In this document: in pieces, positions 5,102 through 29,573 of the stretch | Position numbering within the stretch: the first letter of the stretch is position 1 | Layout: each line of letters opens with the position of its first letter | DNA from: Bacteroidales bacterium | GTDB taxonomy: Bacteria > Bacteroidota > Bacteroidia > Bacteroidales > F082 | DNA length: 41,484 nucleotides | Direction of reading: 5' to 3' | Assembly (NCBI GenBank): GCA_024400305.1 | Contig: JAKSMX010000025.1 | Location: forward strand, 1-41,484 | Program-made: the position numbers and the translations under genes | The notes under the pieces: model-generated | Databases searched by the model: none | What the model was told of the DNA's origin: nothing | Seen by the model: only the letters and a program-made list of their open reading frames with translations

Positions 5102-5174
5102 TGCCTAATGGTGTAATTGGCAACACGACTGACTCTGGATCAGTAAAGTCCAGGTTCGAACCCTGGTTAGGCAA
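5102..5174 (+). tRNA. tRNA-Gln (anticodon CTG)
   Basis: A full cloverleaf can be drawn: a 7-bp acceptor stem (TGCCTAA with TTAGGCA), D arm GTGT/ACAC, anticodon stem ACTGA/TCAGT around loop CTCTGGA with anticodon CTG, and T arm CCAGG-TTCGAAC-CCTGG. The U1-A72 first pair is a known glutamine tRNA trait. The discriminator is A, and CCA is not encoded. Confidence 0.95.
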
Positions 5175-12274: not shown

Positions 12275-12348
12275 CGCCCCCTTCAGGACTTGAACCTGAG
12301 ACCCCCTGATTAACAGTCAGATGCTCTAACCAACTGAGCTAAGGAGGC
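12275..12348 (-). tRNA. tRNA-Asn (anticodon GTT)
   Basis: Read on the minus strand: acceptor stem GCCTCCT with AGGGGGC (one G-T pair), D arm with AGCTCAGTTGGTTAGAGC, anticodon stem CTGAC/ATCAG region around a loop with anticodon GTT, and T arm CAGGTTCAAGTCCTG. The discriminator is G, as expected for Asn, and CCA is not encoded. It lies just past the 3' end of the polysaccharide operon. Confidence 0.95.
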
Positions 12349-14421: not shown

Positions 14422-17157
14422 TTAACTTCTCGTGACCTGCAGTCCTGTTTCGGAAAGCGACATCTCGACAAACCGCGCCTTGTTGTTTGCGGGGTTTTCA
14501 GTCAGAATCCTCTTGATTTGCGCTGCCGCGAAGTTGTCTTTCGCCACCATGTAGATGAAACCGCCGCCGCCGGCTCCTGGGAGTTTGAAGCCGAGGCAGA
14601 AATCATCGATTTTCTTCAAAATTTCTTCAACTTCGGCCGGGTTGGTGCCGCTGTCGAGACGTTTGTTTTGCTCCCAAGTCTTGGCTATCATCTTGCCATA
14701 GTTCTGATAATCATTGCGTTGAATTGTCTCGAACATTGCGTTGGCGTGTTGCTTCATGTCGGCGAGGAGTGCCAGGTGTCCGGTTTCGTTGAGGAACATT
14801 TTCCTGACGATTTCCGAGAGTATGTTTTTTGCCGTGCGCGTGATTCCGGTATAATATAAAAGGTGGCACGGTTTGTATTCGGGTTTTGTGAAAAGGTAGT
14901 CGGGCAGCCATTTTATGACAGGTGTCTGCTCGAAGCCGGGTTTTGTCTCAAGGAGTTTCACTCCGTGGAAAACGCCGCCGTATTGGTCTTGCCAGCCGCC
15001 GCCTGTCGTCAGTAACTGCTCTAATATCAATGTCTTGTTGCAGATGACGGTTTTGTCCCAGCCGAGTTTGCAGAAATCGGAGATGGCGGCGAGTACTGTT
15101 GACGAGAGTACCGATGAGGTGCCGAGGCCGCTTCCGGCGGGGATTGCCGACAGCAACGTGATCTCCATTCCGCAGCCGAAGTCTTTGAGCTGCTGTTCAA
15201 GAGTGGCATATTTCTTTTGACAGAAACGTGGCACGAAACCTGCCAGTGCCAATGCCGCCTTCGGTATGCTGAAAGGCGATCCGACTTTCTTGAAATCACA
15301 GACGTCTTCAAATGTCCTGACCTCCTCGTGGGCACCCAAGTCGATGGATCTCAATATTATGTGAAATTCGTTCGAGGGTTTTACGTAAACCTGAATCGGC
15401 TGCTGGCCGTTGAGTTCGATGGCGATGTTCACCACGGAGCCGCCTTCCATGAGGCAATACGGAGGCGTGTCGGTCCAGCCGCCGGCGAGGTCGATGCGCA
15501 CCGGCGAGCGGCTCCACACAATCTGGTCGGAATAGACATCGCACTGCGGCATCTGCAGGTCACCGTAGGCCGAAGCTGTAAGGCCTTCCTGAAGAAGATG
15601 AAAAGCCTCCGATTCCTCCGCCATGAAGTTCAAACCTTTATACTGGTTGATCCTGGCACGAAGGCTGCTGTTATGGATTCTCTTCATAACATCTTCATTT
15701 TCTGTGAGTTCAGCTGGTGACTCAATGCCGAATCTCACATATTTTGATGCGATGTCATCTAAATCGACGTTATAGAAAACGCTTCTGCTGTGATTCGCTT
15801 CGAGAAGCGGAAGGTTCTTCTGCATGAACATTTCACGTTGTGTGAAAAGCCGTTTCAGGTCGGCCTTGTTCAAAATCTCCTCGGCGGAAATGTATTCAGT
15901 GTGAAGTTTTGAGAGTGAAGAGTGAAGTTTTGGGTTTTCGTCAAAAACGCTCTTCACGTACTGCCCCATTTCCTCGATGTCGTCGAAGACAGGGAACGCC
16001 GCCGTCTTGAATGGGTCGGCGTTTTCAGCCGCGTTGACAAATTTGAAAGGCTCGTTGAAATTGTAGGGACGTGCCACGAATGACTTCTCGCCAATCGGGA
16101 TGATGTCGAGGCAGTCGCCGGGGTTCAGTGTCACATCCCATTGATTTTCAGGCACGCCGGTGATGATGTTTTGTCTCGTGACGTTCCAGTTTCTCCCGAC
16201 GTGGCTGTTTTCGATCCAGATGTCGGAGTTTTCAGAAGTGAAGTGAATCTCCGTGACGCAGTTCTGTGTGAAAATCGCGGGATGCGGCTTCACTTTATGA
16301 TGGAAGATTTTGTTCTGGTCGTTGACGAGGTTCTGCACGGCGAGTGTCGAAGAGACGAGTTCGCGGCTTGTGCCGTAATGGTAGAACTCGCCGCCGTCCA
16401 ACGGCATTATCTTGACTGTCAGTTTGTTGAGTTCGATGTCTTCGAGTTCGGGGTTGTTTCCGAGGCAGCGTCCGAAGTCGGAGTAAAGGTCGTAATATTT
16501 TATGTTTCCGTTTTCGTCTTTCGAACGTTTTTCGAGCATCTCCACCGCCTTGTCGCTCAACAGCCACAGCCCGATGTCCATCATATAGACGTGTGTTTTA
16601 ACGAGTTCGTCGATTTGTTCGAGAGTGGGTTTCTGGAGCATCTTGTCGAGTTCGGCGGGGTTGTTGCGCCGCATCGCGAACACTCCGTGGTTCTTTGCTA
16701 TCGAAGAATTAACCCAGACCCCGTAACAAATCACGTCAGCTTCCGGGACTTCGCGCAGCTGTTCGTCGGTGCGGATGAACACGTCGCCGCTGGCAATCAG
16801 AGTGTTGACCGTGACTGGTGTCTTCTCCATAATCTTCTTGTACAGAGGCAGTTGCAGTGACAACAGATCCTGCCCGATTTTCTGTCCGCGAGCCCATCTG
16901 AACACCGGAATAGGGGTGAGGATCTTGCCTGAAGTGGAATATGAAGGCAGCCGCCTTGACTCGCCGCCGGCGTGGATGAGGATTTTCTTGTCGTATGAAG
17001 GGAATTTTTCAAGCAGCCACGTGGAGCCGCCGCCAGAGCCGATGCGGTGGCCTATCGGGTCGGAGGTGCAGAAATATTCGTCTTCTGGCAATCCCGTTAT
17101 ATCATGAAAAGAATTGACCAAATTCGGCGGAAGTGAGAGTAAAATCTTCATAATCAA
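14422..17157 (-). CDS. fkp: Bifunctional L-fucokinase / GDP-L-fucose pyrophosphorylase Fkp
   Basis: A 911-residue protein closely matching Bacteroides Fkp (949 residues) along its length. It phosphorylates L-fucose and then forms GDP-L-fucose from fucose-1-phosphate and GTP, allowing host or dietary fucose to enter surface glycans. The N-terminal pyrophosphorylase domain (1 to about 480) carries C-T-S-D-P and H-A-G-G-E-S-R-R-L-P near 55-75, with S-G-K-I-L-T-P. The C-terminal GHMP kinase domain (about 560-911) has S-P-V-R-I-D-L-A-G-G-W-T-D-T-P-P, the ATP loop I-P-A-G-S-G-L-G-T-S-S near 690, G-G-G-W-Q-D-Q-Y-G-G, and L-P-G-A-G-G-G-G. A copy of the dispersed 7-bp-based repeat is in frame near residue 410-419, in the linker. 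No gmd/fcl genes are nearby, which points to salvage. Confidence 0.95.
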   Translation of the reverse strand: MIMKILLSLPPNLVNSFHDITGLPEDEYFCTSDPIGHRIGSGGGSTWLLEKFPSYDKKILIHAGGESRRLPSYSTSGKILTPIPVFRWARGQKIGQDLLSLQLPLYKKIMEKTPVTVNTLIASGDVFIRTDEQLREVPEADVICYGVWVNSSIAKNHGVFAMRRNNPAELDKMLQKPTLEQIDELVKTHVYMMDIGLWLLSDKAVEMLEKRSKDENGNIKYYDLYSDFGRCLGNNPELEDIELNKLTVKIMPLDGGEFYHYGTSRELVSSTLAVQNLVNDQNKIFHHKVKPHPAIFTQNCVTEIHFTSENSDIWIENSHVGRNWNVTRQNIITGVPENQWDVTLNPGDCLDIIPIGEKSFVARPYNFNEPFKFVNAAENADPFKTAAFPVFDDIEEMGQYVKSVFDENPKLHSSLSKLHTEYISAEEILNKADLKRLFTQREMFMQKNLPLLEANHSRSVFYNVDLDDIASKYVRFGIESPAELTENEDVMKRIHNSSLRARINQYKGLNFMAEESEAFHLLQEGLTASAYGDLQMPQCDVYSDQIVWSRSPVRIDLAGGWTDTPPYCLMEGGSVVNIAIELNGQQPIQVYVKPSNEFHIILRSIDLGAHEEVRTFEDVCDFKKVGSPFSIPKAALALAGFVPRFCQKKYATLEQQLKDFGCGMEITLLSAIPAGSGLGTSSVLSSTVLAAISDFCKLGWDKTVICNKTLILEQLLTTGGGWQDQYGGVFHGVKLLETKPGFEQTPVIKWLPDYLFTKPEYKPCHLLYYTGITRTAKNILSEIVRKMFLNETGHLALLADMKQHANAMFETIQRNDYQNYGKMIAKTWEQNKRLDSGTNPAEVEEILKKIDDFCLGFKLPGAGGGGFIYMVAKDNFAAAQIKRILTENPANNKARFVEMSLSETGLQVTRS
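15901..15932. repeat. In-frame copy of the dispersed 7/14/21-bp repeat inside fkp
   Basis: A 32-base stretch matches the array after tdk (35305-35440) except for G-to-A changes, giving gtgaag in place of gtggag. On the coding strand it encodes K-L-H-S-S-L-S-K-L-H, the same peptide pattern that the array encodes in antisense. The frame stays open. Confidence 0.65.
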
Positions 17158-17164
17158 TGTTTTG

Positions 17165-18550
17165 TTATTTTGTTGCTATTGTTTTGCCTTCTTCGAGACC
17201 TTCGGTGCTTTCTTTCTGGAAAATCACCTTCAAAGTAAGAAGAATCAATTGAATATCAAGGAGAATAGAGGCGTTCCCGACATAAATCATGTCGAGCTTC
17301 AGTTTGTCAACGAAAGTGGTGTTGTATTTTCCGTAAACCTGTGCGTAGCCTGTCAAGCCGGCTTTCACGTAGAGTCTGTATCTGAATTCGGGCAGCTGCT
17401 TGCAGTATTCATCGGCGATTTCCGGGCGTTCCGGGCGCGGTCCGACGATGCTCATGTCGCCTTTCAGGATGTTGAAGAACTGCGGCAGCTCGTCAATCCT
17501 GCAAGCGCGGATGAAACGTCCCACAGGTGTGATGCGGTCGTCGTTTTCAGAGGCGAGACGCGCCTTGCCGTCGCTTTCGGCATTTTGGATCATGCTGCGG
17601 AACTTGATGATTTTGAATATCTTGCCGCCCTGTGTGTAACGCGTCTGCTTGTAAAAGACGGGACCTCTGTCGTATGAATATATCGCGGCGGCGATGGCAA
17701 TCATTACCGGCGAAGTGATGATGATTCCAATAGTAGAAATGAAAATGTCGCCGATTCGTTTCACTATTTTTTCAAAAACAGACATGGAATTGTTTTTGTA
17801 AAAATACAAAGGTGTGTCAAGCAGATGCGAATATTTCGAGTTTTTGTTTATTATGTCAGTGATTGATGGCACGAAATAAATCTTCTTTTCCTTTGAATAA
17901 CAAATGTTCTGGATAATCTCTCGCTTGTCGGTCGGGATGTCGTCAATCATCACGAGGTCGAAGTTGTCGATGTGGCTGATGATGTTCTCCATAGTGTCAA
18001 AACAGCTGACCTTGTCTTTTATCACATAGTTAAGATGCTGATTCATAAAGCGTTTTGAAATGTTGTCATTCTCATCTGCATAGATGTGAAGCAGTTCGTA
18101 AGGGTTGAAAAGTTTGTGGTAGATGGTCATCGCGACCATTGTGAATAAAAAGACAAATACGATTTGCACGACATACATCTTGAAGAAACTCAACAAGATA
18201 GCCGGTATCAGAATCACTCTGCCTATGAGCATTATCACGAACAGAATCTGCATGAACGATGCGCACAGAAGCGCGATTGACTGCGAGATGATGATGTTCG
18301 TACGGGTATAGATTCCGAGCTTGAAACCGCCGAATACGCTCATGAAAAGCAGCACGAAAAACATGTAGATGCCTATGACGAGGAAATTTCCTTTCAGGAG
18401 AAAGCTCGTGTAAAGTAACGGGTTGAGACTTTTGTACCAAATGTATGCAAAAGAAAACATCACGAATAACGCCGTGATGACGTTGCAAATGCCGCGGAAT
18501 GGATATTTCAGTGATTTGTTTGCTGGTCTTGACATGACAATTTGTTTCAA
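17165..18550 (-). CDS. Polyprenyl-phosphate sugar-1-phosphate transferase (WcaJ/WbaP-like)
   Basis: A 461-residue initiating transferase of the large type. Four hydrophobic helices occupy about residues 15-150, a CoA-binding-like Rossmann segment about 150-250, and the C-terminal bacterial sugar transferase domain about 262-461. The catalytic segment is intact: R-I-D-E-L-P-Q with Asp353-Glu354, then K-G-D-M-S-I-V-G-P-R-P and K-A-G-L-T-G-Y-A-Q-V. It starts repeat-unit assembly by attaching the first sugar-1-phosphate to undecaprenyl phosphate at the inner face of the membrane. Only 7 bases separate its stop from the fkp start. As the only initiating enzyme here with an intact DE pair, it is the likely main priming enzyme of the operon. 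Confidence 0.9.
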   Translation of the reverse strand: MKQIVMSRPANKSLKYPFRGICNVITALFVMFSFAYIWYKSLNPLLYTSFLLKGNFLVIGIYMFFVLLFMSVFGGFKLGIYTRTNIIISQSIALLCASFMQILFVIMLIGRVILIPAILLSFFKMYVVQIVFVFLFTMVAMTIYHKLFNPYELLHIYADENDNISKRFMNQHLNYVIKDKVSCFDTMENIISHIDNFDLVMIDDIPTDKREIIQNICYSKEKKIYFVPSITDIINKNSKYSHLLDTPLYFYKNNSMSVFEKIVKRIGDIFISTIGIIITSPVMIAIAAAIYSYDRGPVFYKQTRYTQGGKIFKIIKFRSMIQNAESDGKARLASENDDRITPVGRFIRACRIDELPQFFNILKGDMSIVGPRPERPEIADEYCKQLPEFRYRLYVKAGLTGYAQVYGKYNTTFVDKLKLDMIYVGNASILLDIQLILLTLKVIFQKESTEGLEEGKTIATK

Positions 18551-18553
18551 AAA

Positions 18554-19747
18554 TTATTCTTTTATAAAATTTGCGAAATGTATCATTTGCTTTTTGAAAG
18601 AAAAAGCGTCGCTTGAAGCGGAGATGCAGTTCTTGATATATTTATTGTATTCGTTATCAGGCATTTCTGCGAATGTCCGAATGTTTTGTTCAAGTGTTTT
18701 GTAGTCGGCTGGTTTTGATGTCAGTCCGATTCCGAAATCATTCACGATGTCGGCACCTTCTCTGTCGCCGCTGAACAGCACCGGGATGCCGTGCGGCAGG
18801 ATGTCGAAAATCTTTGACGGCACCGCGCCTTTGATTGATGTCATCAGCGGGATTATTGACACGTCATATTTCTTCAGTTCGGCGACGAGCTCGTTTTTTT
18901 GAAGATAACCGTGATAGAAAATATTTTTCTCGCCGTCGCCGATGTATTTCAAGATCTCGTCAAGTTGGTTGCCACCGCCGTAAAGATGAAACTCAACGTT
19001 AAGTTGTTTAAAATCAATGTTTTTGATTAGCGATAACAAATCCTGCGCCACGCCAAACAGACCGGCATAAACGATTTTAAGTCCGTTTTTTCTTCTGCCG
19101 CCGAAATCCTGCTGTGTCGGATCGCCGTTTTCCTGAAGGTTTCTGTATAGGAAAGTCTTCTTTTCAGGAAACATTTCGAGAACGTGGTCGATGATTTCCT
19201 GCGACTGTCCCATCACCACGTCGGCGTTCTTGTAGATGAAACGCTCGTGCCTGAGCATGAAACGGTGCGACCTGCCGCCTTCCTTCATGACACCGAGTTC
19301 GACCGCCGAAATCGGCCATAGGTCGGAGACGTTGAGGATGACGTTTTTTCTCTTTATCTTTTTGAAAAGAAACATCGCCGATGAAGCTACAAGAAGCGGC
19401 GGCGACTGTATTATGACTCTGTCGTAACTTTTTATGAGGCGGAATCTGAAGGCGAAAAACCACATCGTGAAGGCGAAAGAAAGCATCGCAATCACTCTCT
19501 TTACCGGATTCTTGCTGTTGCAGGCGTAAGTCCAATAACGGTAAACATCTATTCCGTCAATGTTTTCTTTCATTGAGAATCTGTGTCTGTATCCTTCGAA
19601 AATCCTGCCTTTTGGGTAATTAGGCATACAAGTCAGGACATCGACATCAACGCCGTTGTCTTTGAGGCCGCAGGCTAAGTTTGTGATGCGTGACGGCGCG
19701 GCTCCGACTTCGGGCATATAATAAAACGAAACAACAAGTGTTTTCAT
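18554..19747 (-). CDS. Family 4 glycosyltransferase (WbuB-like)
   Basis: A 397-residue GT-B glycosyltransferase. The N-terminal domain shows P-E-x-G-A-A-P-S-R-I near 12-20 (glycine-rich acceptor loop), then C-M-P-N-Y-P-K-G and the H-R-F/R-Y-W-T pattern of WbuB-type GT4 enzymes. The C-terminal domain begins near 215 with K-I-V-Y-A-G-L-F-G and contains L-Y-G-G-G, H-G-Y-L, and a short G-A-V-P-S-K-I-F-D / L-F-S-G-D-R-E-G-A-D donor-binding segment near 300-335. It transfers a sugar to the growing lipid-linked repeat unit; donor unknown. Genes on both sides are within 4 bases, so the genes are co-transcribed. Confidence 0.88.
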   Translation of the reverse strand: MKTLVVSFYYMPEVGAAPSRITNLACGLKDNGVDVDVLTCMPNYPKGRIFEGYRHRFSMKENIDGIDVYRYWTYACNSKNPVKRVIAMLSFAFTMWFFAFRFRLIKSYDRVIIQSPPLLVASSAMFLFKKIKRKNVILNVSDLWPISAVELGVMKEGGRSHRFMLRHERFIYKNADVVMGQSQEIIDHVLEMFPEKKTFLYRNLQENGDPTQQDFGGRRKNGLKIVYAGLFGVAQDLLSLIKNIDFKQLNVEFHLYGGGNQLDEILKYIGDGEKNIFYHGYLQKNELVAELKKYDVSIIPLMTSIKGAVPSKIFDILPHGIPVLFSGDREGADIVNDFGIGLTSKPADYKTLEQNIRTFAEMPDNEYNKYIKNCISASSDAFSFKKQMIHFANFIKE

Positions 19748-19750
19748 GAA

Positions 19751-20563
19751 TCAAAAAATGTTCTTTATTGTCCCGGCGATGCGCGTCAGAAACAATATGA
19801 AATTGTATCTGAAAGGATGCCCGAAATAAATTTTGTTGTATTGCAAAATCAACTTCAAGCCGCTGATAATCTTTGTCTTACGTGAACGATGCGATGTCAG
19901 GGCGGAGCTTTCCCTTATTCTTCTGTAGTATATTGCATCCTCGTCCGAGCATTCCATCGCCTTGATGTCTTTCGACAAGGTGAACATGAACACGCAGTCT
20001 TCGGCTATTTTGAAGTTTGTGTTGAAACGGGTGTCGCTAATTAATTCCTTCGGTATGAGTTTGCCCCAGCAGACCGAAAGATGCGACCTTGCCTGAACGA
20101 TTGACGATTTGCCTTTGCCGTAGAGTTTGTTGAACATGTTTGTAACATAATACGGTTGCACCGAGTTTTCTTCATCAAGGAAAGAAATGACATTTGACAT
20201 CGGAATGACATTTTCTTCAGCTATCGGCAGCATCTTTTCCAAAAAACACTCTGAAATGTAATCATCGTCGTCAACAAAAGTAATGTAACGTCCTTTTGCG
20301 TTGTCGATGCCGATGTTACGGGCGTTTGATACACCAGCGACATCGGTCTGCAACACCTTTATTATATAGCCTTCAAAATTCTTGTTTGCAAAATTGATGA
20401 TTTCTGAATAATATGGTTCTTTGCATCCGTTGAGAATCAGTATTATTTCAAATCTGTCTTTCTCGAACGTTTGGTTTTTCAAGGAAGTCAGACACTGCCA
20501 TATATAACTTTTTGGTTTGTATGAAGGTATGACTATTGAGATGTCGATTCCGTTGTCTTTCAT
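19751..20563 (-). CDS. Family 2 glycosyltransferase
   Basis: A 270-residue GT-A enzyme. It has the N-terminal D-I-S-I-V-I-P-S-Y strand-loop (about 5-13), F-E-I-I-L-I-L-N-G with G-C, the G-V-S-N-A-R-N-I-G-I-D motif (about 80-90), and V-D-D-D-D-Y-I-S (about 99-106) as the metal-binding DxD. The C-terminal third (about 160-250) holds the acceptor region, including A-E-D-C-V-F near 188. It adds one sugar to the repeat unit on the cytoplasmic side; donor and linkage are unknown. It is only 2-3 bases from its neighbours. Confidence 0.88.
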   Translation of the reverse strand: MKDNGIDISIVIPSYKPKSYIWQCLTSLKNQTFEKDRFEIILILNGCKEPYYSEIINFANKNFEGYIIKVLQTDVAGVSNARNIGIDNAKGRYITFVDDDDYISECFLEKMLPIAEENVIPMSNVISFLDEENSVQPYYVTNMFNKLYGKGKSSIVQARSHLSVCWGKLIPKELISDTRFNTNFKIAEDCVFMFTLSKDIKAMECSDEDAIYYRRIRESSALTSHRSRKTKIISGLKLILQYNKIYFGHPFRYNFILFLTRIAGTIKNIF

Positions 20564-20565
20564 TC

Positions 20566-21738
20566 TTATCCAAGCAGTTCGTCGTGTAGTGCATCGAGGA
20601 ATCCGTGACCGTATTTTAGGTCTGGTTCGACATAGTTGCCTTCACCCCATTCATTCCACGAACGGAGGAAAAGGATTTTGTGTTCTTCAGGTTTGTCGGC
20701 AATCAAGTTGATGGCGTCGTTCAGGTGTTTGCGGAAGTTCTCCGGCGTGGCATTGACGTAAACGTCGTCGCATGTCCCCACGCGCGGGCTTTTGTCCCAT
20801 TGAGGTAAAACTGTCGGGAAAATGTTGTCCCATCTGTCTTCCGGAGCAAAGAAATATTTAATGCTTTTCTCATAATTGAAGACATCAGGCTTCATAAAAG
20901 GGAAGAACTCCCTCAGTTTCTTCTGCGCCAAACGGCGGTATTTTCCTGTGTATATCATTTCCGAACGCCGCTTACCGTATGAGTTTATCGCATCAAATCC
21001 GACGGAAAATATGTTTTCATAGACATCCTTACTGCTCTTGAGGTTGGGCATAATGTTTTTTTCAAGTGTGCCGTCCTCTTTCAAGCGTATGGTGCTGGTA
21101 TTGTTCGCAAGTGCCACGAAATAAATACCTTTCAGTCCGTTGTCTTTTGCAAGTTTTCGCCAAAGTTCTATGAAATGTCTTACGTCTTTGAATTTGTACG
21201 GGTCGAAAATTGTGAATATCGGCTTCCCGTCAACGGTGATGTAACGTTTGTCCTTGAACGCCTTCAGCACGTAGTTGAAATGATTGATGTAATCCTCGTC
21301 GCCTGGATATGTCTGTTCGGCAATCATCGTGACTGTCGTTTTTCTGTCGGCCTGCTGCCATGTTTTTGTTGTCCAGTCGTGGTTCGCCCAGCAGAGGCAG
21401 AATGGAAAATCTGGCTTGCCGCTGTTCAGCACTTCGTCGAATGGGCGGTCGAGCAGCCGTTTCCCGTTGCCGAACCAATAATGCCAGTAGCAGAAGCCTT
21501 CGATGCCCGCCTCTCTCGCCAATTCCGCCTGCGCCTCGCGCACTTCGGGGAGACGAAGGTCGTAGAAACCGAGGTCTGCCGGCACTCTCGGCTGGTTGTG
21601 GTTTCTGAAAAGCGGTTTCGCCTTCGCCACGTTGGTCCATTCGGTGAAACCCTTTCCCCAGAATTTGTCGTTTTCCGGAATCGGGTAGAACTGCGGGAGA
21701 TAATATGCGATCACCCGCGCTTTTGCGCTGTTATTCAT
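20566..21738 (-). CDS. WbsX-like / GH99-like protein
   Basis: A 390-residue protein with the WbsX (glycosyltransferase WbsX, GH99-like) signature: an N-terminal A-Y-Y-L-P-Q-F-Y-P-I-P-E-N-D (about 11-24), W-G-K-G-F-T-E-W (about 27-34), L-G-F-Y-D-L-R near 56, G-F-C-Y-W-H-Y-W-F near 81-89, W-A-N-H-D-W near 118, and S-W-N-E-W-G-E-G-N-Y-V-E-P-D near 360-373, all typical of this TIM-barrel group. WbsX proteins are found in many O-antigen and capsule loci. Whether they act as transferases or endo-hydrolases is unsettled. Its place between glycosyltransferase and polymerase genes suggests trimming or modification of the polysaccharide. Confidence 0.88.
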   Translation of the reverse strand: MNNSAKARVIAYYLPQFYPIPENDKFWGKGFTEWTNVAKAKPLFRNHNQPRVPADLGFYDLRLPEVREAQAELAREAGIEGFCYWHYWFGNGKRLLDRPFDEVLNSGKPDFPFCLCWANHDWTTKTWQQADRKTTVTMIAEQTYPGDEDYINHFNYVLKAFKDKRYITVDGKPIFTIFDPYKFKDVRHFIELWRKLAKDNGLKGIYFVALANNTSTIRLKEDGTLEKNIMPNLKSSKDVYENIFSVGFDAINSYGKRRSEMIYTGKYRRLAQKKLREFFPFMKPDVFNYEKSIKYFFAPEDRWDNIFPTVLPQWDKSPRVGTCDDVYVNATPENFRKHLNDAINLIADKPEEHKILFLRSWNEWGEGNYVEPDLKYGHGFLDALHDELLG

Positions 21739-21745
21739 AATAATA

Positions 21746-24616
21746 TTAAAATGCCCTGATTGCCCTTACCTTAGCGATATAGAATTTTTCCTGTGCGATG
21801 ATTTTCCCATTCATGACAAACCATGCTTCTTCTGAATTTCTTTCAGTGCTTGTCCAGTATTCTTTTCTTGAAATGATGTCGCCGCCGTTTTTATACAGTG
21901 TGGCACTGATAGGGCCTATTTCTCCGAGGTTTTTGTTTGCCGTGGAGAGAAGCCTCGACAATTCACCGATACTTGGAAGATACCATTCGGCTCCGTTTTC
22001 CCTGCACACCGAAGCCGCCGTGTGTTCGCCCGACAGATTCGCCGTGATGATATCGGTTTCTTTGGCGCCGCGTTCAAACTCCAACCCTCGTGCAAGGATG
22101 ACATTCCCGAATGTTATCACGAAACCGTCTTCTGCTTCATCGTCGCGAACCTTTATTTCGTCGCCGGGTTCGTTGACTAATTCTTCAATATCTGATACCG
22201 AAGTGCTCCAGTATGCCGTGGTCTCGGTCATGCTCACCACAAGACCGTGGCCGTTTCCGTCGTCGTAGAAGACAACGCCTTCGGAGCCGTCGTCGAATTT
22301 CATGAGCGTGCCTATCATAGAATTGTCTTTGTTGTCGATGTGATCTTCGTAGTTGTAAACAGGAATGCCTTTGAAAGAGTTGTTCTCGAGATTCACTTTC
22401 TCTGTGACATGTGTCGAATAAACGGCGAAACACTCGTTGTCGTATTCTTCGTTGACGGCTGTGAAAGTGTTATCTTCCAGAATCAGGTCAGTCAGGCCGG
22501 CGATGTATATTCCGTCATTTCTGTAGTAACTCTTGTCGATGAAGAAATCGGAGGACAGGATAATGGCTTTTTGGCAATCTTTCAGTTCTATTCCGATGTT
22601 GTTGTCTTTAAAGATGGCGTTGAAAATCTTCGGCTCGTTTATTTTGTTGAAGTTGATGGTGTTAGCCGCGATTCCGCGGTGGAAGCCGCTGAAGACAGTT
22701 CTGGTTCTCTTTCCGTCACGACTGCTGCCTACAGTGAAGTCGCTGTCGTTGGCTTCGATGCCGACGGAGAACTCGGAAATTTTATCGTTTTTCACGGTTT
22801 GCAGGAACTGGCATCCGTAGAATTTCAGGCCTCTTACCTCGTACAAATCAACGTGTTTATAGAACATTTCTGTCCCGATGAAATCTTCATTTATTTCAAA
22901 GACGCAGTTGTCGAACCATGCGTTGTAGTCGGTGGGCCTGAAAGTGTTCGGATCGACATTTTTATAATTTTCGGCGTGTATCGCCCTCGTATTGTTGATG
23001 AAACGGGAGTTTTCGGCATGTATTATTCCGCCTTTTTTGAACCAGTCTTCCGCATCGCCGAGGTCAACGCCGATAATGGCGTTCTTAATCTCCGCATTAT
23101 GAAGCTCGATATAACCCTGCTGATAAACGCCGTTGATTTTATATTGGTGCAACGAGTTCTTACCGTAAACCTGTATCCCTTGCCATTGTCTGACTCCATT
23201 TGTCATGTCGGCGTCGATGGTGGCGTTTTCGACGACAAGCACGCCGCCTCTGTGAACAATAATCCGGCAGTCAGGATTGACATAAACGTTACAATCTTTG
23301 ATAGTCAGCTTGCAGCCGTTCTCGATGATGCATGAATCCGAGAGGATTGTGTCGTTGATCCATACTATTTCGGACGTTATTGTGTAGTCCTCAAATTCGA
23401 GTGTCACACGTTCGTCCTTGACTGTTGTCAACGAGTTGTCATATTGAGAGTCAACGATGATTTCACGTTTCACATGCTTCTGCTCGTTGAACACCGACCT
23501 GTATGGGAGGTATCTGTCGTAGATGTGTGCGCCTTCGCACAGAGAATATTGGTTTCTGCAATATTTTATCGTCACCACGCCGAAGAACGAGATCACCGTG
23601 AGTACTGCCAAAGTAAGACTGTATTTGTTTTTTGCGATGTCGTCTCTGTTGTCGAGCAAGGTGTTTGCCATATAGACGAGGATGAAAGGAATCAGGTAGT
23701 CGTTGAAACGCCCTATCACGTTGTGGAAAAGACTTCCGAACTGGACAATCACCATCATCATCGCGGCAACGCCGAAACGACGGTCGTTATCATATCCGAA
23801 GATACGTCTCATAAGCATGACTCCCAAGACAGGGATGCATATCGTCAACTGGTCGAAGAGGTAATATTTCGACAGTTGTGGCATTCCATTGGCGTATGAG
23901 TCGAGCCTCGACATCAGGTAATACCTGAATCCAGTGGTTGTCTCTATGTTGACTGATTCTATTATTGACTTCACATTGATGAAAAAGGCCGTTACAAGAA
24001 TGATGGCGCATGTTACTATGCAGGCGGTAAAGTTTTCTTTCTTGACAAACCGAAACAGAGGTATGATGAAAAGGAACGCTGCGGATATGTGGAATCCCAC
24101 CGCAATCAGCGAAAGCAGGAAATACCAGTGATATTTTTTCTTTTCGAGGAAAGGATAGGCTTCGAGGAACAATGCGACGCACAATGCCGAGCGGAGGATT
24201 TCCGTGTTGTAAAACAGATAATACCCGACGAAATAAAGAAGCACTACCGAGAAGAAATGCTTTGAGTAACGTTTGAAAAATCTGAAAAAGGCGACGTTTA
24301 CGAGAAACGCTTGCACAATCTGGAAGACATAGAAGCTGTTGCCCAAAGATTTGAAGATGGAATTATAGACGTACCACAACGGCATGAAATAAGCCGCCTC
24401 GAAATTGAATTTAAAAATTCTGGCAATGTCGGGATATGTCTGGAAATGAACCATATAGCCGAGAGTGTCGCCTCCGACCCTGTAACGAAGACCGGCGATG
24501 AGAGTCAACGCCGACAGGCAGATGTAATACCAGAGCTTCTCGTTTCCTTCTTTTTTGAGGATGTCAAATCTGATGAATGGAATTAAAATGAGTATTAATG
24601 CAAATAAGTAAACCAT
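21746..24616 (-). CDS. EpsG-like polymerase fused to beta-helix and Lcl/DUF1566-like domains
   Basis: A single uninterrupted 956-residue protein in three parts. Residues 1 to about 375 form a polytopic EpsG/Wzy-type membrane domain with about ten hydrophobic helices, the early R-Y-R-V-G-G-D-T-L-G-Y motif (44-54) and a G-F-H-I-S-A-A segment (174-180). EpsG proteins normally end near here. Residues about 400-760 look like a right-handed beta-helix: strand-turn repeats, I-I-V-H-R-G-G-V-L-V-V-E-N-A-T, W-Q-G-I-Q-V-Y-G, and many N/D-rich turns, as in Bacteroidota secreted surface proteins. Residues about 765-956 resemble the Lcl C-terminal/DUF1566 domain (W-Y-L-P-S-I-G-E-L, Y-W-T-S-T-E, V-R-A-I-R-A-F). 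It probably polymerises the repeat unit and presents a periplasmic or surface glycan-binding part. The start is 11 bases from the upstream stop. The fusion is unknown to me. Confidence 0.85.
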   Translation of the reverse strand: MVYLFALILILIPFIRFDILKKEGNEKLWYYICLSALTLIAGLRYRVGGDTLGYMVHFQTYPDIARIFKFNFEAAYFMPLWYVYNSIFKSLGNSFYVFQIVQAFLVNVAFFRFFKRYSKHFFSVVLLYFVGYYLFYNTEILRSALCVALFLEAYPFLEKKKYHWYFLLSLIAVGFHISAAFLFIIPLFRFVKKENFTACIVTCAIILVTAFFINVKSIIESVNIETTTGFRYYLMSRLDSYANGMPQLSKYYLFDQLTICIPVLGVMLMRRIFGYDNDRRFGVAAMMMVIVQFGSLFHNVIGRFNDYLIPFILVYMANTLLDNRDDIAKNKYSLTLAVLTVISFFGVVTIKYCRNQYSLCEGAHIYDRYLPYRSVFNEQKHVKREIIVDSQYDNSLTTVKDERVTLEFEDYTITSEIVWINDTILSDSCIIENGCKLTIKDCNVYVNPDCRIIVHRGGVLVVENATIDADMTNGVRQWQGIQVYGKNSLHQYKINGVYQQGYIELHNAEIKNAIIGVDLGDAEDWFKKGGIIHAENSRFINNTRAIHAENYKNVDPNTFRPTDYNAWFDNCVFEINEDFIGTEMFYKHVDLYEVRGLKFYGCQFLQTVKNDKISEFSVGIEANDSDFTVGSSRDGKRTRTVFSGFHRGIAANTINFNKINEPKIFNAIFKDNNIGIELKDCQKAIILSSDFFIDKSYYRNDGIYIAGLTDLILEDNTFTAVNEEYDNECFAVYSTHVTEKVNLENNSFKGIPVYNYEDHIDNKDNSMIGTLMKFDDGSEGVVFYDDGNGHGLVVSMTETTAYWSTSVSDIEELVNEPGDEIKVRDDEAEDGFVITFGNVILARGLEFERGAKETDIITANLSGEHTAASVCRENGAEWYLPSIGELSRLLSTANKNLGEIGPISATLYKNGGDIISRKEYWTSTERNSEEAWFVMNGKIIAQEKFYIAKVRAIRAF

Positions 24617-24627
24617 AACGTAATGTG

Positions 24628-25797
24628 CTAAATCTCGTTTTTTATATCTTTGTAAAATTCATATACGTGTGCTGTGTTTTGCTCGATGGTATAAAGCGAG
24701 GTCACGGTTTCCTGTGCTTTCTTTATCATCGGGAGATAGAATTCGGGTCCGTTGTCCATCACTTCGCACATCAGACGGGCGAGCTGTGCGCTGTCGGAAT
24801 AACGCAGCCCGATTTCATTGCCGGTGAGTTCCAAGCCGTTGTCGAATTGTTCTTTCGTGCCGGCGATGTCTTTTCCGATTACTAAGCAGCCAGCAAACAT
24901 GGCCTCGGTGGTGACCCTGCCGAAGGCTTCCGAGCGTGACGGTACTATCAATGCTGACGCTTTCGACATCAACTTAAATATGTCATCACGGTTTCCGAGG
25001 AATTTAACCTTGTCGGCGATGCCAAGTGAAGCCGCCATTTCGTGTAACATATCGCCGTATTCCTTTTTGACTGGTTCTCCGGCGACCAACAATGGAAAAG
25101 CATCTTTCCTTTCGCAGTATAATTTTCCGTATGCTTCAATGAGGTTAGTGATGCCTTTCGATTCTTCAAGTCGGCCTGCAAAAAGGAAATAATCTTCTTT
25201 CTGCGGGTCAATAATTACATCTGAGGCATGAAGTATTCCGTTATAAATGATTCTTGAATTTATATGATTATCAAGATTATAATACTTTGAAATATCTTTT
25301 GTTATGCAAATTGTATATGATTTTTCCGCGCTGAAATTTTTAAAATAGATGCTTTTTGACGGGAAGACGTGCATGTTGAAATCCTTGTCGCCGTATTCCC
25401 TGATGTGTGTGACGTGCGGGATGCCGAGTCGTCTCGCGGCTTTCATCCCGATGTTTATGACGCTGACGTTAGTGTGTATGAAATCGGCTTCGAAGTCTTT
25501 GGCTTCCTTGCAAAGTTTCCGCGCAGCCACGTTGTTGACAAATATCCTTGCGATGAGTTTCGGTATGAAAAGCGCGACTTCCTTGAGATTCCTCAATGGC
25601 GGATACGTCGCCGGACGATAGTTGAGGATCAGCGTTCTTATCCCTTCATTTTGCAACGTCTTGCAGAAGTCATCGCCGTCAGGCAAGACAACTAACGGTT
25701 CTATGCCGTTGGCTATCAATCCGTCAAGCATGTTGCGGAACGATTTCGTGGCTCCACTCGCACCTGTCGTGCAATGCAGTACATATACTACCTTCAT
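24628..25797 (-). CDS. Family 4 glycosyltransferase
   Basis: A 389-residue GT-B enzyme. The N-terminal domain begins K-V-V-Y-V-L-H-C-T-T-G-A-S-G-A-T-K-S with the glycine-rich loop of GT4 enzymes, followed by I-H-T-N-V-S-V near 105 and T-H-I-R-E-Y-G near 128. The C-terminal domain has L-F-A-G-R-L-E-E-S-K-G-I near 203-214 (donor-phosphate binding), L-G-N-R-D-D, and the E-x7-E motif in P-S-R-S-E-A-F-G-R-V-T-T-E-A near 288-301. A retaining transferase adding one sugar to the repeat unit; substrate unknown. It is separated from its neighbours by 3 and 11 bases. Confidence 0.9.
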   Translation of the reverse strand: MKVVYVLHCTTGASGATKSFRNMLDGLIANGIEPLVVLPDGDDFCKTLQNEGIRTLILNYRPATYPPLRNLKEVALFIPKLIARIFVNNVAARKLCKEAKDFEADFIHTNVSVINIGMKAARRLGIPHVTHIREYGDKDFNMHVFPSKSIYFKNFSAEKSYTICITKDISKYYNLDNHINSRIIYNGILHASDVIIDPQKEDYFLFAGRLEESKGITNLIEAYGKLYCERKDAFPLLVAGEPVKKEYGDMLHEMAASLGIADKVKFLGNRDDIFKLMSKASALIVPSRSEAFGRVTTEAMFAGCLVIGKDIAGTKEQFDNGLELTGNEIGLRYSDSAQLARLMCEVMDNGPEFYLPMIKKAQETVTSLYTIEQNTAHVYEFYKDIKNEI

Positions 25798-25800
25798 AAC

Positions 25801-26691
25801 TTAACAGCCGTTTATCTCCTTGAACGTCTCTTTGACCGTTTTTTTCTGTTCGCGGAATCTTTCAATTGCTTCTCTAATCCTCGAAGGATGCCCGATGCAC
25901 AACGCCAAAGCCTTGAAAATCACCTGATTCATCTCGTTCCTGTACAGCGATTTCATCGGCATTTGGTTTTTCTTGTAGAAATAAGCCGCCGACCTCATCG
26001 AATGCCGGTATTCTTTGTTTTTGTCGCGCTCGTTGGCGGACGGATGTATGTACCTCAGCTCCTTTAGGAAAACCATTTTTTTCTCAGGAAACATTTCTTT
26101 CAGGCGGAAATGGATGTCGTTCTCCTCACCGTAAAGGAAGATATTCTCGTCAAACATCCCGATTTTCTCGAAAATGTCTTTCCTCATTGCGAAGCACGCT
26201 CCTGATAAAAACATTCTTTTGTATTGAAAATCATCTGTCTGCAGCTTCTTGCGGAGAAATACCTTTCGGAACGCGCTTGTCGTGTGAGTGTAGTAAAACG
26301 AATTGTTTCTTTGATTTTCGTTTTCCATCGACGTGAATCCGCAGAGTGCGATGTCTTCGTTGTCCAACGTGTCGGCTACTTTTGCGAACATCGGCATGAC
26401 AATCCTCACATCAGGGTTCATTATCAGGAACTTGTCTGATGACGAAAGCCGTATTCCGACGTTGTTGCCTTGCCCGTAGCCGCCGTTGCTGGCGTTGCGC
26501 ACGACAATGACGTTGTCGCCGTAAATGCCTTTGATTTCGTCACGCATCGCCTCGAAGCCCGCGCTGGCGTTGTCAACGACAATCACTTCCAATCCGCCGC
26601 CGAGGTCGTTGTGCCTGAAAACGGCTTTCAGACAGTCGAAAATGTCTTTCTCCGAGTTGTAGGTGACAATGATTATTGAAAGTCTTTTCAT
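25801..26691 (-). CDS. Family 2 glycosyltransferase, rhamnosyltransferase-like
   Basis: A 296-residue GT-A enzyme: L-S-I-I-I-V-T-Y-N-S-E at 4-14, V-I-V-V-D-N-A-S (about 34-41), G-G-Y-G-Q-G-N-N-V-G-I (about 69-79), N-P-D-V (93-96) as the metal-binding motif, and D-E-N-I-F-L-Y-G-E-E-N-D near 178-189 for acceptor binding. This arrangement is typical of the rhamnosyltransferase/Wbb-like GT2 group, though the sugar is not proven. It lies 3 bases before the next gene and 6 bases after wzx-like. Confidence 0.9.
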   Translation of the reverse strand: MKRLSIIIVTYNSEKDIFDCLKAVFRHNDLGGGLEVIVVDNASAGFEAMRDEIKGIYGDNVIVVRNASNGGYGQGNNVGIRLSSSDKFLIMNPDVRIVMPMFAKVADTLDNEDIALCGFTSMENENQRNNSFYYTHTTSAFRKVFLRKKLQTDDFQYKRMFLSGACFAMRKDIFEKIGMFDENIFLYGEENDIHFRLKEMFPEKKMVFLKELRYIHPSANERDKNKEYRHSMRSAAYFYKKNQMPMKSLYRNEMNQVIFKALALCIGHPSRIREAIERFREQKKTVKETFKEINGC

Positions 26692-26697
26692 TGAAAA

Positions 26698-28032
26698 TCA
26701 GGATTTTAGCAATGATTTGATTTTGAAGATGTCTTTCCACCCAAGCAGCAACGCCTTCGACTGCATCCTGAAAAGATGACGGTATTGCGGAATGAAAAGG
26801 TCGGCGATGTAACCTGCCGACAGATTTGAAAGTATCGCGACGACGGCTGCTCCTTCAGTGCCGAATCGTGGAATCAGCAACAAGTTGAAAACCACGCAGA
26901 TAACACAGCCGAAGCCGTCGCGCAGGATGGCGTATTTCTGCAAGCCTTCGATGATGAGCAGCTGCCCGGCGGTGTTCGACAGGGCGACGCTCACGGCTTT
27001 GAACGAAAGAATCTGCAGGATTGCGACTGCCGGGAGATATTTCTCGCCGAAAGTCAGGATGACGAGATAGTACGAAACCAGGCTCGTGACCACCGCCATG
27101 AAAACGCTTCCCCAAATAGTGACGTTCATGAAAACCTGCGATTTCTTCTTGTATTCGTCATAGTCTTTCTCTCTTGTCCGTATCAGAATCGGTGCGACGG
27201 TCTGCGCAATGATTGTCGGGACGAAGATAAGCACCTCGACGAATTTGCTCGCCACCGAGAACTGCCCGACTGAAGCCGAGTCGATCATCTTCCCAATCAT
27301 CACCTGATCGATGCGCTGGTAAATCATCACCGCCGCGCCCGTCAGCATCAGCGGAAACGACTGTGCCACAAGGTATTTCGCCCATTTGATGTCGAACCGC
27401 CACAGCTTCATCCTGCCGATTTTCAGTCGGTATGACGTGCAATAGCCGCTCGCAAGCAATACGAAATCGAAGGTGTAAACGGCGATGAACCAGCCGAGAC
27501 CCGCCTTCGCGAACAGCAGCCCGATCTTGATCAATGCGCCGATGACAGTCCTGGAGATCTCGGTCTTCACGACGTATTCGTTCCACACCAGCGACGTGAA
27601 ATGGTTCCTGATGACATTCAGGCTGTTGAGTACGATTGAAACCGAATAAAGCATTATCATCCATCTCGTGAACGAGTCGGTTTCGGTTATCGTCACCGAG
27701 ACCGCCACAGCCGCCAGTGTTATTGCCGCCAAGATGATTTTTATCGTGAACGCCGTCCCGATGATCACGTCTCTTTCTTCAGGATGCCTCGACTCCTCGC
27801 GGATTTCGATGCTGTCGAGGCCGAATGTCGCAAACACCTGAAAGATACAGACATAGCTGATGACGTAGTTCATCAGGCCGTATTGCTCCGGGCCGAGGTA
27901 ACGCGCCACGAGTATGCCGACGAGAAGGCCGCCGAGAAGACTCACCGTCTTGCCGGCGACCGCCCAGCCGATGTTTTTCGTCACCTTGACGGCGTTTTCC
28001 GAGAGATTAAACCTGCTTGAAATATTCATCAA
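26698..28032 (-). CDS. Wzx-type oligosaccharide flippase
   Basis: A 444-residue polytopic protein of the MOP/Wzx superfamily with about 12-14 hydrophobic helices. Family traits: N-terminal N-I-G-W-A-V-A-G-K-T-V-S-L-L-G-G, A-R-Y-L-G-P-E-Q-Y-G-L-M-N-Y near 43-56, and Y-Q-R-I-D-Q-V-M-I-G-K near 245, which are typical of capsule flippases. It moves the lipid-linked repeat unit across the inner membrane for polymerisation. The second Met (28029) is an equally good start. It overlaps nothing and is 35 bases downstream of the ligase-like gene. Confidence 0.9.
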   Translation of the reverse strand: MMNISSRFNLSENAVKVTKNIGWAVAGKTVSLLGGLLVGILVARYLGPEQYGLMNYVISYVCIFQVFATFGLDSIEIREESRHPEERDVIIGTAFTIKIILAAITLAAVAVSVTITETDSFTRWMIMLYSVSIVLNSLNVIRNHFTSLVWNEYVVKTEISRTVIGALIKIGLLFAKAGLGWFIAVYTFDFVLLASGYCTSYRLKIGRMKLWRFDIKWAKYLVAQSFPLMLTGAAVMIYQRIDQVMIGKMIDSASVGQFSVASKFVEVLIFVPTIIAQTVAPILIRTREKDYDEYKKKSQVFMNVTIWGSVFMAVVTSLVSYYLVILTFGEKYLPAVAILQILSFKAVSVALSNTAGQLLIIEGLQKYAILRDGFGCVICVVFNLLLIPRFGTEGAAVVAILSNLSAGYIADLFIPQYRHLFRMQSKALLLGWKDIFKIKSLLKS

Positions 28033-28067
28033 AACGGTGGCTTTTCATGCCGTGATTCGCCATGTAT

Positions 28068-29573
28068 CTAAACTGACACCCCGAGCTTCTTGTTTTCCGT
28101 AGCTTTGGCTGAAGAGTTGATGCCGGTCAGCAGACAGTTGAGCAGCAACATGTTAAAGAAATTGAAGAAGATAATTCCGCATTGCCTCTCAAAAATCGCC
28201 TCGAAAAATGCGTTGAAGCTGATTATCAGAATGAAAATCAGGTATATGATGGAGAATCTCTTGTTTTTTATCATGATGAAAATCGGGACGATGAAATATC
28301 CCAACAATAATACCAAGCCGATGACACCAAGGCTGATTATTGTTTCAAAGTATTGATTGTGAGAATTTAATGTGTTCGTGATGGCATCGGAAATATAAAT
28401 GTAATTGACATATATTCTGCTTACAGACTCCGGCGTGCAACATCTTCTTTCCGCATCGGTCATGATGTAGTTTTTAGTGAAGTCGTTCGGTACATGCCAG
28501 TTTTCGTCATCCGGCTGTCTGGTGAATGTCATGATTTCCTGGAGAAGAATGTCTCTGTTGTGTTCAAATGTCTGTCTGTCAACGCCTTGCACTGGTGCAA
28601 TTGATGAAACCAGTTTGTTCCTGTATGATTCGTATGATTTTACAATTTCGTCATATTTGTCGCCTGTACCTACACCAAACAACCAGTTTTCCTTCAGAAC
28701 TTGTTTGTAACCAATGAATTGCACAAGTCTTCTGTCGTTCGTGTTTTTTGAAGTGATGATTTTCATCGTTTCAGTGATTCTTGAGATGCTTTCCGGCAAC
28801 AGTTTGATTGTGCCTCCGGCGGCGGCCAGTATTATCGCACATGTGACAATCCCTGCTTTTGTTTCTTTTTTGGAGAATAATGTCCACGCTAAAAGGATGA
28901 TTATCTCAATGAGCAGAATGACGATTCCGGCGCGTGAGTTGCACAAGATTATGAAAACAGCCAGCATCACCGCGGCGATGATGTATGATGCCCTGACTTT
29001 CCTTTGATTGAAAAGCTCGACATAGCAGAAAGCCAGGGCCAGCGTCGCATACATCGACATGTACGAATGATGGACGTAATAAAGTTTCATGAGTTCCTTG
29101 TCGAAGAAACGTGACGTGTCATATCCGTTGAATATCACGTCGATGGCGGCCCAGATGATATTCGTCAGGAAGAAAACCAAAATGCCGGTTGTCATGCTGC
29201 AAAACACCGCGCGGATCCTGTCTTTCGTGAGGTATGACATGTCCGACAAAAGAAAGACGAGCGGGAAGAAAAAGAACCCGAGCTTCTTTATCACCGCCAT
29301 CCAGCCTTCCTTGGCGTCTTGGGTGTAAATCATCCCGCAAAGGGTGGCCAGCCATGTCAGCATGAAGATGATATATGCCCATTTCCAACGCAGTTGGGTG
29401 CTGTTGAACTGAAATTTTTGGTGGACGATGATCTTGAGGATGGCGCATGTCACAAGTGCTATCTCAAGAATCTGCGCCACATACCAGTAAAACGGTATGG
29501 AAAATGCCAAGATTAACATTAATGCGAACTCGGTTTTCTGAAAAGGTGTCAATTTGGCGAACAAATTTTTCAC
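28068..29573 (-). CDS. O-antigen ligase / polymerase family membrane protein
   Basis: A 501-residue polytopic protein with about ten or more hydrophobic helices and a large extracytoplasmic loop (about 285-400). That loop region ends in S-H-N-Q-Y-F-E-T (near 415), the conserved H-N-x-x-x-E signature of the Wzy_C/O-antigen ligase superfamily, followed by two helices. A second motif, W-L-F-G-V-G-T-G-D, lies near 312. It could be the ligase or the block polymerase. The EpsG-like protein in the same operon is the other candidate, so roles cannot be assigned by sequence. It is the first gene of the polysaccharide operon, about 100 bases after a -7 box and a possible attenuator. Confidence 0.85.
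   Translation of the reverse strand: MKNLFAKLTPFQKTEFALMLILAFSIPFYWYVAQILEIALVTCAILKIIVHQKFQFNSTQLRWKWAYIIFMLTWLATLCGMIYTQDAKEGWMAVIKKLGFFFFPLVFLLSDMSYLTKDRIRAVFCSMTTGILVFFLTNIIWAAIDVIFNGYDTSRFFDKELMKLYYVHHSYMSMYATLALAFCYVELFNQRKVRASYIIAAVMLAVFIILCNSRAGIVILLIEIIILLAWTLFSKKETKAGIVTCAIILAAAGGTIKLLPESISRITETMKIITSKNTNDRRLVQFIGYKQVLKENWLFGVGTGDKYDEIVKSYESYRNKLVSSIAPVQGVDRQTFEHNRDILLQEIMTFTRQPDDENWHVPNDFTKNYIMTDAERRCCTPESVSRIYVNYIYISDAITNTLNSHNQYFETIISLGVIGLVLLLGYFIVPIFIMIKNKRFSIIYLIFILIISFNAFFEAIFERQCGIIFFNFFNMLLLNCLLTGINSSAKATENKKLGVSV

Follow-up and report, generated by a model that had tools for sequence, protein, structure and literature searches.

The 41,484-nucleotide contig JAKSMX010000025.1 of a Bacteroidales bacterium (genome G000), referred to here in its entirety as the window, carries a gene in which an EpsG/Wzy-type membrane polymerase domain, a beta-helix and an Lcl_C/DUF1566-like domain are genuinely fused in one reading frame. 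The gene, P0001, was delimited by reading of open frames at 21746..24616 on the minus strand, running from 24616 down to 21746, and consists of 956 codons and a stop; read on the plus strand in that frame, the same interval is interrupted by stops. An earlier note, made from the letters alone, had placed a frame of 956 codons with these three parts at exactly this position, leaving the strand unstated, and both the coordinates and the order of domains are borne out by our analysis. The polymerase domain with its conserved tail comprises residues 1 to about 389 (23450..24616; from Pfam, conserved residues, AlphaFold2 and loop charges). It is followed by a linker of residues about 390-408 (23393..23449; from alignment), by a beta-helix module of residues about 409-762, with a confident part at 411-735 (22331..23392; from Pfam, homologues, AlphaFold2 and Foldseek), and by the C-terminal Lcl_C/DUF1566-like domain of residues 763-956 (21749..22330; from Pfam, homologues and Foldseek), all on the minus strand. 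The best explanation that we can offer, and one that we hold tentatively, is that this protein is an EpsG polymerase with a periplasmic chain-handling appendage.

The fusion recurs in related genomes. A full-protein search of 149 genomes recovered a full-length match in G069 and one restricted to residues 1-760 in G085, and a search for the EpsG family in 99 genomes of the genus, which by inference is Candidatus Limimorpha for all five genomes with the fusion, added fused genes in G152 and G154. The frames are of 956 amino acids in G069 (88% identical), 950 in both G152 and G154, and 758 in G085, which is without the Lcl-like domain. As G152 and G154 are almost identical, these represent four distinct versions of the fusion. 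Recurrence of the full frame in G069, G152 and G154, and of the frame minus its last domain in G085, excludes a chance fusion and provides homologues with the same domain order. In none of the five genomes is the fused frame broken by a stop or frameshift, and the join is open and gapless in all five, which rules out a frameshift near codon 385 or an error of assembly. The earlier note had also considered a separate start at that point. There is no ATG between codons 345 and 470, the first ATG past the membrane part being codon 471, within the helix; GTG or TTG codons lie near the join at 347, 348, 375, 382, 396, 404 and 459 (ribosome sites unscored). A separate helix start near the join was rejected on the lack of an ATG there, and such a product would, by inspection, be without a signal peptide.

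Among the genomes sampled, only a small group has the fused form. EpsG places scoring over the Pfam cut-off numbered 20 in the 99 genus genomes, five of them fused and the remainder in frames of 342-474 amino acids, and 21 in 173 genomes of the family, including the same five fused genes. Among the matches listed, the 295 genomes of the order gave 52 such places, of which only that of the window exceeded 600 amino acids, the next-longest being a weak match of 576, and the 395 genomes of the phylum gave 69, again with only that of the window above 600 and the next at 448. These genus, family, order and phylum searches share genomes. Over the genus, order and phylum samples the other over-cut-off EpsG frames are of 192-576 amino acids, and frames of more than 700 were found only in the five genus genomes. 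A further 16 matches below the cut-off lie in frames of 608-1048 amino acids; of the five scanned, one was a cytochrome c assembly protein, three carried Wzy_C with tetratricopeptide (TPR) repeats and one was TMEM260-like, and none gave a helix match. The statement of the earlier note that EpsG/Wzy proteins stop after the membrane part therefore holds for the EpsG family in these samples, but not for Wzy proteins at large, three Wzy_C proteins having C-terminal TPR repeats.

In phylogenetic analysis the fused proteins form one group both in a tree of the EpsG part (17 rows; support 95/96), in which the bare EpsG of G006 comes next (98/98), and in a tree of the helix (30 rows; 100/100). In G006 the bare EpsG (39% identical over residues 1-413) is followed by a WbsX gene, and a WbsX-like gene is also next after the fused gene in G069, G152 and G154. 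The G085 frame stops right after the helix, and its next gene, WbsX by similarity, begins 57 bases on. The placement of G085 differs between the trees: in that of the EpsG part it branches off outside the remaining four fused proteins (97/98), which fits acquisition of the helix first and the Lcl-like domain later, and in that of the helix it groups weakly with G152 and G154 (91/75), which fits loss of the Lcl part.

All parts of the fused protein are under purifying selection, as judged from pairwise ratios of non-synonymous to synonymous change (dN/dS) obtained by simple counting over 27 rows, with part of the G152-G154 comparison and the G152-G085 and G154-G085 pairs left out. The ratios are 0.07-0.14 for the EpsG domain, 0.11-0.17 for the linker, 0.06-0.12 for the helix and 0.14-0.16 for the Lcl part, ranges that set aside the G152-G154 pair and two rows with saturated dS (G000-G152 and G000-G154, both for the helix). 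Of the 26 rows that compare distinct versions, 23 have a dS that is saturated or higher than 0.8; the remaining three all belong to the pair G000 and G069 (linker 0.30, helix 0.797, Lcl part 0.47). Such low dN/dS despite large dS argues for a functional appendage, as a non-functional one would have decayed. That the added modules are a neutral passenger, a tolerated chance fusion with no function, is therefore highly improbable: the G085 protein does keep its polymerase without the Lcl part, but low ratios over every part at far-diverged synonymous sites, together with frames intact in all five genomes, strongly disfavour this reading.

The N-terminal domain has the sequence of an EpsG/Wzy-type polymerase with nearly invariant residues intact, and polymerase activity is predicted. 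The Pfam EpsG family (PF14897) matches residues 28-352 with E 8.3e-34 and 117.6 bits, over the cut-off of 30.1. In alignment A3, of 49 EpsG proteins (the 5 fused, 12 bare EpsG fetched earlier and 32 of 40 further EpsG loci, the eight left out having been chosen by eye), H176 is invariant and R44, G48, D50, Y54, R142, Y241, R303 and Y372 occur in at least 90% of sequences; all are present in the fused protein of the window, whose numbering is used here. The full-length AlphaFold2 model was made with alignment A2, in which most bare EpsG proteins are represented by N-terminal halves and small misplaced ends remain. Because A2 was shallow and that model was poor over the C-terminal half of EpsG, residues 1-405 were modelled separately with A3 (pLDDT 88.9, pTM 0.89). 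We read this second model as 12 membrane-crossing helices, two of which form a short pair meeting at H176; a plain hydropathy scan alone gives 8-12 membrane segments. The conserved Y372 is located behind the last membrane helix, and D50 lies just behind a membrane helix and ahead of interfacial helices, a placement that we take to be reminiscent of GT-C enzymes.

The sidedness of the model follows from the charge of its loops. Lysine and arginine make up 0.202 per residue in loops following odd helices against 0.063 in those following even helices, a bias that runs the same way in all 49 sequences, and by the positive-inside rule the basic odd-helix loops would be cytoplasmic and the C-terminus past helix 12 periplasmic. 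Both ends of the protein, and residues 390 onward, are thus predicted to lie on the periplasmic side, in agreement with the expectation of the earlier note that the chain beyond about residue 380 is extracytoplasmic. The same assignment would also place R44-Y54, H176 and Y241 in the periplasm.

Residues about 411 to 735 have, according to the full-length AlphaFold2 model, the fold of the beta-helix that the earlier note had read there. Regular strands run through this region, with a mean pLDDT of at least 90 in 24 of the 32 ten-residue blocks of 411-730 and of 78-89 in the other eight; elsewhere in the model the membrane part is good in its first half only, the linker is of low confidence and the Lcl part is poor. 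Pfam supports the assignment less firmly, as only the EpsG domain of the three scores over its cut-off. Beta_helix (PF13229) matches residues 606-758 with 24.8 bits, just under the cut-off of 25.9, and gives 23.8 bits, also under it, in G069; G085, G152 and G154 have none with an E of 0.01 or lower. A sequence search of the PDB returned nothing significant (best E 0.29 for the helix and 0.13 for the Lcl part). Foldseek with the full-protein model gave no match that was counted at E 0.001 or better, and its best-ranked matches are, as we take it from their fold names, mostly beta-helix proteins. First among them is the periplasmic alginate epimerase AlgG (4ozy, E 1e-3), the two best-scoring AlgG entries having a TM-score of 0.22-0.24 by query length, followed by other glycan-active proteins; the 50 matches listed out of 185 include polysaccharide lyases, polygalacturonases and phage tailspikes.

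These structural matches raise the possibility of a built-in tailoring enzyme, in which the beta-helix would modify the fresh chain in the periplasm in the manner of AlgG, as an epimerase, a lyase or similar. We consider this improbable. None of the five fused proteins contains the DPHD motif, the pectinase-type patterns GHG and NTD are absent from the helix of the window (with no systematic search for a conserved pocket), and the sequence relatives of the module point elsewhere. The nearest of these are 33-41% identical in the 24 used, and all four that were scanned, one from the window's own genome, are proteases secreted by the type IX secretion system (T9SS), with a C1, C25 or M43 domain and a Por_Secre_tail, in which the helix separates the protease domain from the sorting tail. 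Occurrence of the module in secreted proteins agrees with a periplasmic side for the appendage. It also favours a different alternative, that the appendage is cleaved off after export and works unattached in the periplasm or at the surface, the fusion serving only as a delivery route, and the linker, with its low model confidence, could be cleavable. This is less probable still than a tailoring enzyme, as no Por_Secre_tail is matched by Pfam in any of the five fused proteins, and the linker is gapless and under selection about as strong as that on the rest.

The C-terminal domain carries all three of the marks WYLPS, YWTSTE and VRAIRAF on which the earlier note had based its assignment to DUF1566. 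As with the helix, the Pfam match is under the cut-off: Lcl_C (PF07603) matches residues 874-953 with E 7.1e-5 and 23.5 bits, and scores range over 20.0-27.4 bits (E 4e-6 to 9e-4) in the four fused proteins with this domain, against a cut-off of 34.9. The C-terminal domain of Legionella Lcl (8q4e) is found at Foldseek rank 18, with probability 1.00, E 1.2e-2 and a TM-score by target length of 0.52, for a part of the model that is of low confidence. DUF1566 domains are described in passages of PMC6642488 and PMC8143477 as common targets of diversity-generating retroelements. We rejected the present domain as such a target, no template repeat being found in its own genome (reverse transcriptases unsearched); the last 285 bases of the gene matched, in that genome, only themselves and three short chance-level sequences (E 0.38). 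Elsewhere in the genus, Lcl-like domains sit in frames of widely differing length, and the three proteins inspected are small, secreted-looking and of other kinds. Secreted-looking proteins with such domains are encoded at L042:3163-4254, where the protein resembles CsgG/LpoB with scores below their cut-offs, and at L045:3902-4987, where inspection shows several look-alike neighbours, and single frames of 2041-2164 amino acids in G021:C26, G047:C32 and G049:C9 each have at least four Lcl/DUF1566-like matches.

A further explanation is a scaffold or anchor, in which the helix and Lcl-like domain would bind Wzz, an export or envelope protein or peptidoglycan and so position the polymerase, with no glycan handled. 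A helix set between protease and sorting tail in the four scanned T9SS proteases, Lcl-like domains distributed as a general adhesion module would be, the acidic surface of the added modules and the Wzy_C proteins of related genomes with C-terminal TPR repeats, which are usually protein-binding, are all in favour of this explanation; against it, no partner is known, although no search for partners was made. We regard it as unlikely, ranking it second, after chain handling and ahead of an enzyme.

Under the chain-handling explanation that we prefer, the gene would encode an EpsG-family, Wzy-type polymerase, with 12 helices in the inner membrane, that serves a surface polysaccharide made by the Wzx/Wzy route. 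The ancestor of a small group in the genus would have fused a beta-helix, of the kind present in the secreted proteins of the genus, to the C-terminus of EpsG, and an Lcl/DUF1566-like domain would also have been added, being absent from, or lost in, one lineage. An appendage of about 570 residues would then stand beside the active site in the periplasm, where, we infer, it most likely contacts the nascent chain or the machinery of export: it may touch the growing lipid-linked chain or pass it on for export. The polymerase would thereby carry its own module for chain handling, whether holding, length-setting or hand-over, beside the Wzz proteins of the genome. A more specific form, in which the beta-helix is a rail and the Lcl-like domain a lectin-like end that together handle or measure the chain, beside or replacing Wzz for this polysaccharide, is possible but doubtful.

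Several observations weigh against chain handling. One of the five fused proteins (G085) lacks the Lcl-like domain; the weak likeness of the helix to glycan-active proteins in Foldseek may say merely that it is a beta-helix; and the module in its four scanned relatives is part of proteases rather than of glycan enzymes. Both added modules are acidic, with a net charge (the only charge property computed) of -11 to -14 for the Lcl-like domain in the four proteins that have it and of -15 to -23 for the helix. This makes it less likely that they bind acidic glycans as Legionella Lcl does, whose basic glycosaminoglycan-binding face, a trait of the L. pneumophila protein and not one that defines the family, is not matched by an acidic net charge. 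Of the glycan-binding, chain-length or anchoring module suggested in the earlier note, the architecture is supported, and the charges speak against the simplest, Legionella-like version. Acidity alone does not exclude chain handling, because the surface of Wzz where the chain may grow is, according to passages of PMC12004945, also negatively charged. Finally, no length regulator is missing: Wzz-family matches occur in 97 of the 99 genus genomes, and in the window's genome at two places on other contigs, such that the fusion as a replacement for a missing Wzz is unsupported.

The genes around the fusion, all on the same strand (minus), place it inside a Wzx/Wzy-type polysaccharide locus. Upstream are a group 1 glycosyltransferase 11 bases away (24628..25797), a family 2 glycosyltransferase (25801..26691), a Wzx-type flippase (Polysacc_synt; 26698..28032) and, in the same locus, a Wzy_C gene of the O-antigen ligase/polymerase family (28068..29573). 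Downstream are a WbsX glycosyltransferase 7 bases away (20566..21738), a family 2 glycosyltransferase (19751..20563), a group 1 glycosyltransferase (18554..19747), the initiating sugar transferase (Bac_transf; 17165..18550) and an Fkp-like fucose pyrophosphorylase/GHMP kinase (14422..17157). We note that in five of five related loci a secreted-looking protein of 559-574 amino acids with no Pfam match is encoded between genes that were named by inspection as Wzy_C-type and flippase-type (L067:2782-4506, L068:2922-4646, L033:1520-3229, L034:5133-6812 and L032:14107-15816); it is absent from the expected site in the window, a 35-base gap at 28032-28068 (rest of the genome unsearched). The window further encodes a bacterial alpha-2-macroglobulin-type protein of 1932 residues (35527-41325) and two tRNA genes, at 5102-5174 on the plus strand and at 12275-12348 on the minus strand; the second of these is flanked by the second sugar-transferase gene and a PfkB gene.

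Each of the three domains is known, and their combination gives a known family a new architecture, which among the sampled genomes is restricted to a small group and is carried by a few related gut bacteria. The earlier note knew of no described example, and we likewise found no polymerase with an EpsG and beta-helix architecture in the open-access literature searched. How Wzy handles its chain and cooperates with the length-setting Wzz is presented as unsettled in passages of PMC12004945, the poor expression and strong hydrophobicity of Wzy proteins being part of the reason. A natural polymerase whose active site has a large, soluble domain beside it in the periplasm would offer a handle on the chain-length question. 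The fusion also illustrates clearly how an inner-membrane enzyme has acquired modules of secreted proteins, with bare, helix-only and helix plus lectin-like states all found at one gene position.

The fused protein can be compared with several known systems. The PglB/STT3 oligosaccharyltransferases likewise carry a C-terminal periplasmic domain behind a membrane domain for sugar transfer, and of the 50 PDB matches listed for the EpsG model (ma35fb60ab655) those to PglB have the highest TM-scores by query length (0.39-0.41), but this match is not significant (E 0.43-1.3) and a sequence relation is not shown. AlgG shares with the fused protein a periplasmic beta-helix on an exopolysaccharide route; in contrast, it is a separate protein. 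It differs too in DPHD, given in passages of PMC4444821 as the catalytic motif of AlgG and AlgE. Legionella Lcl, described in passages of PMC11162425 as a surface adhesin that forms trimers and has collagen-like repeats and a strongly basic binding face, is similar in its C-terminal domain, through a weak sequence match, the Foldseek match and the position in the chain, whereas the domain described here is acidic and borne by an inner-membrane enzyme. The T9SS-secreted proteases with a beta-helix in mid-protein are, of the sequences found, the closest relatives of the helix module, but have a protease domain and a Por_Secre_tail, neither of which was found in the fused protein, and by inspection an N-terminal signal-like stretch. 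With the EpsG family itself the protein shares a score over the cut-off, the conserved residues, the topology and neighbouring glycosyltransferase and flippase genes, and it departs from it in the helix-bearing frame, which among the genomes searched is particular to the five of this genus. Comparable in plan are the Wzy_C proteins with C-terminal TPR repeats, three of which, of 732-743 amino acids, are encoded in related genomes (L151:1202-3400, L152:1015-3216 and L153:1451-3682). These too join a Wzy-type membrane domain and a soluble C-terminal domain in one chain, with a different membrane family (Wzy_C) and a different appended fold (TPR rather than beta-helix and Lcl-like), and a soluble tail on a Wzy-type domain is therefore not unheard of in these bacteria.

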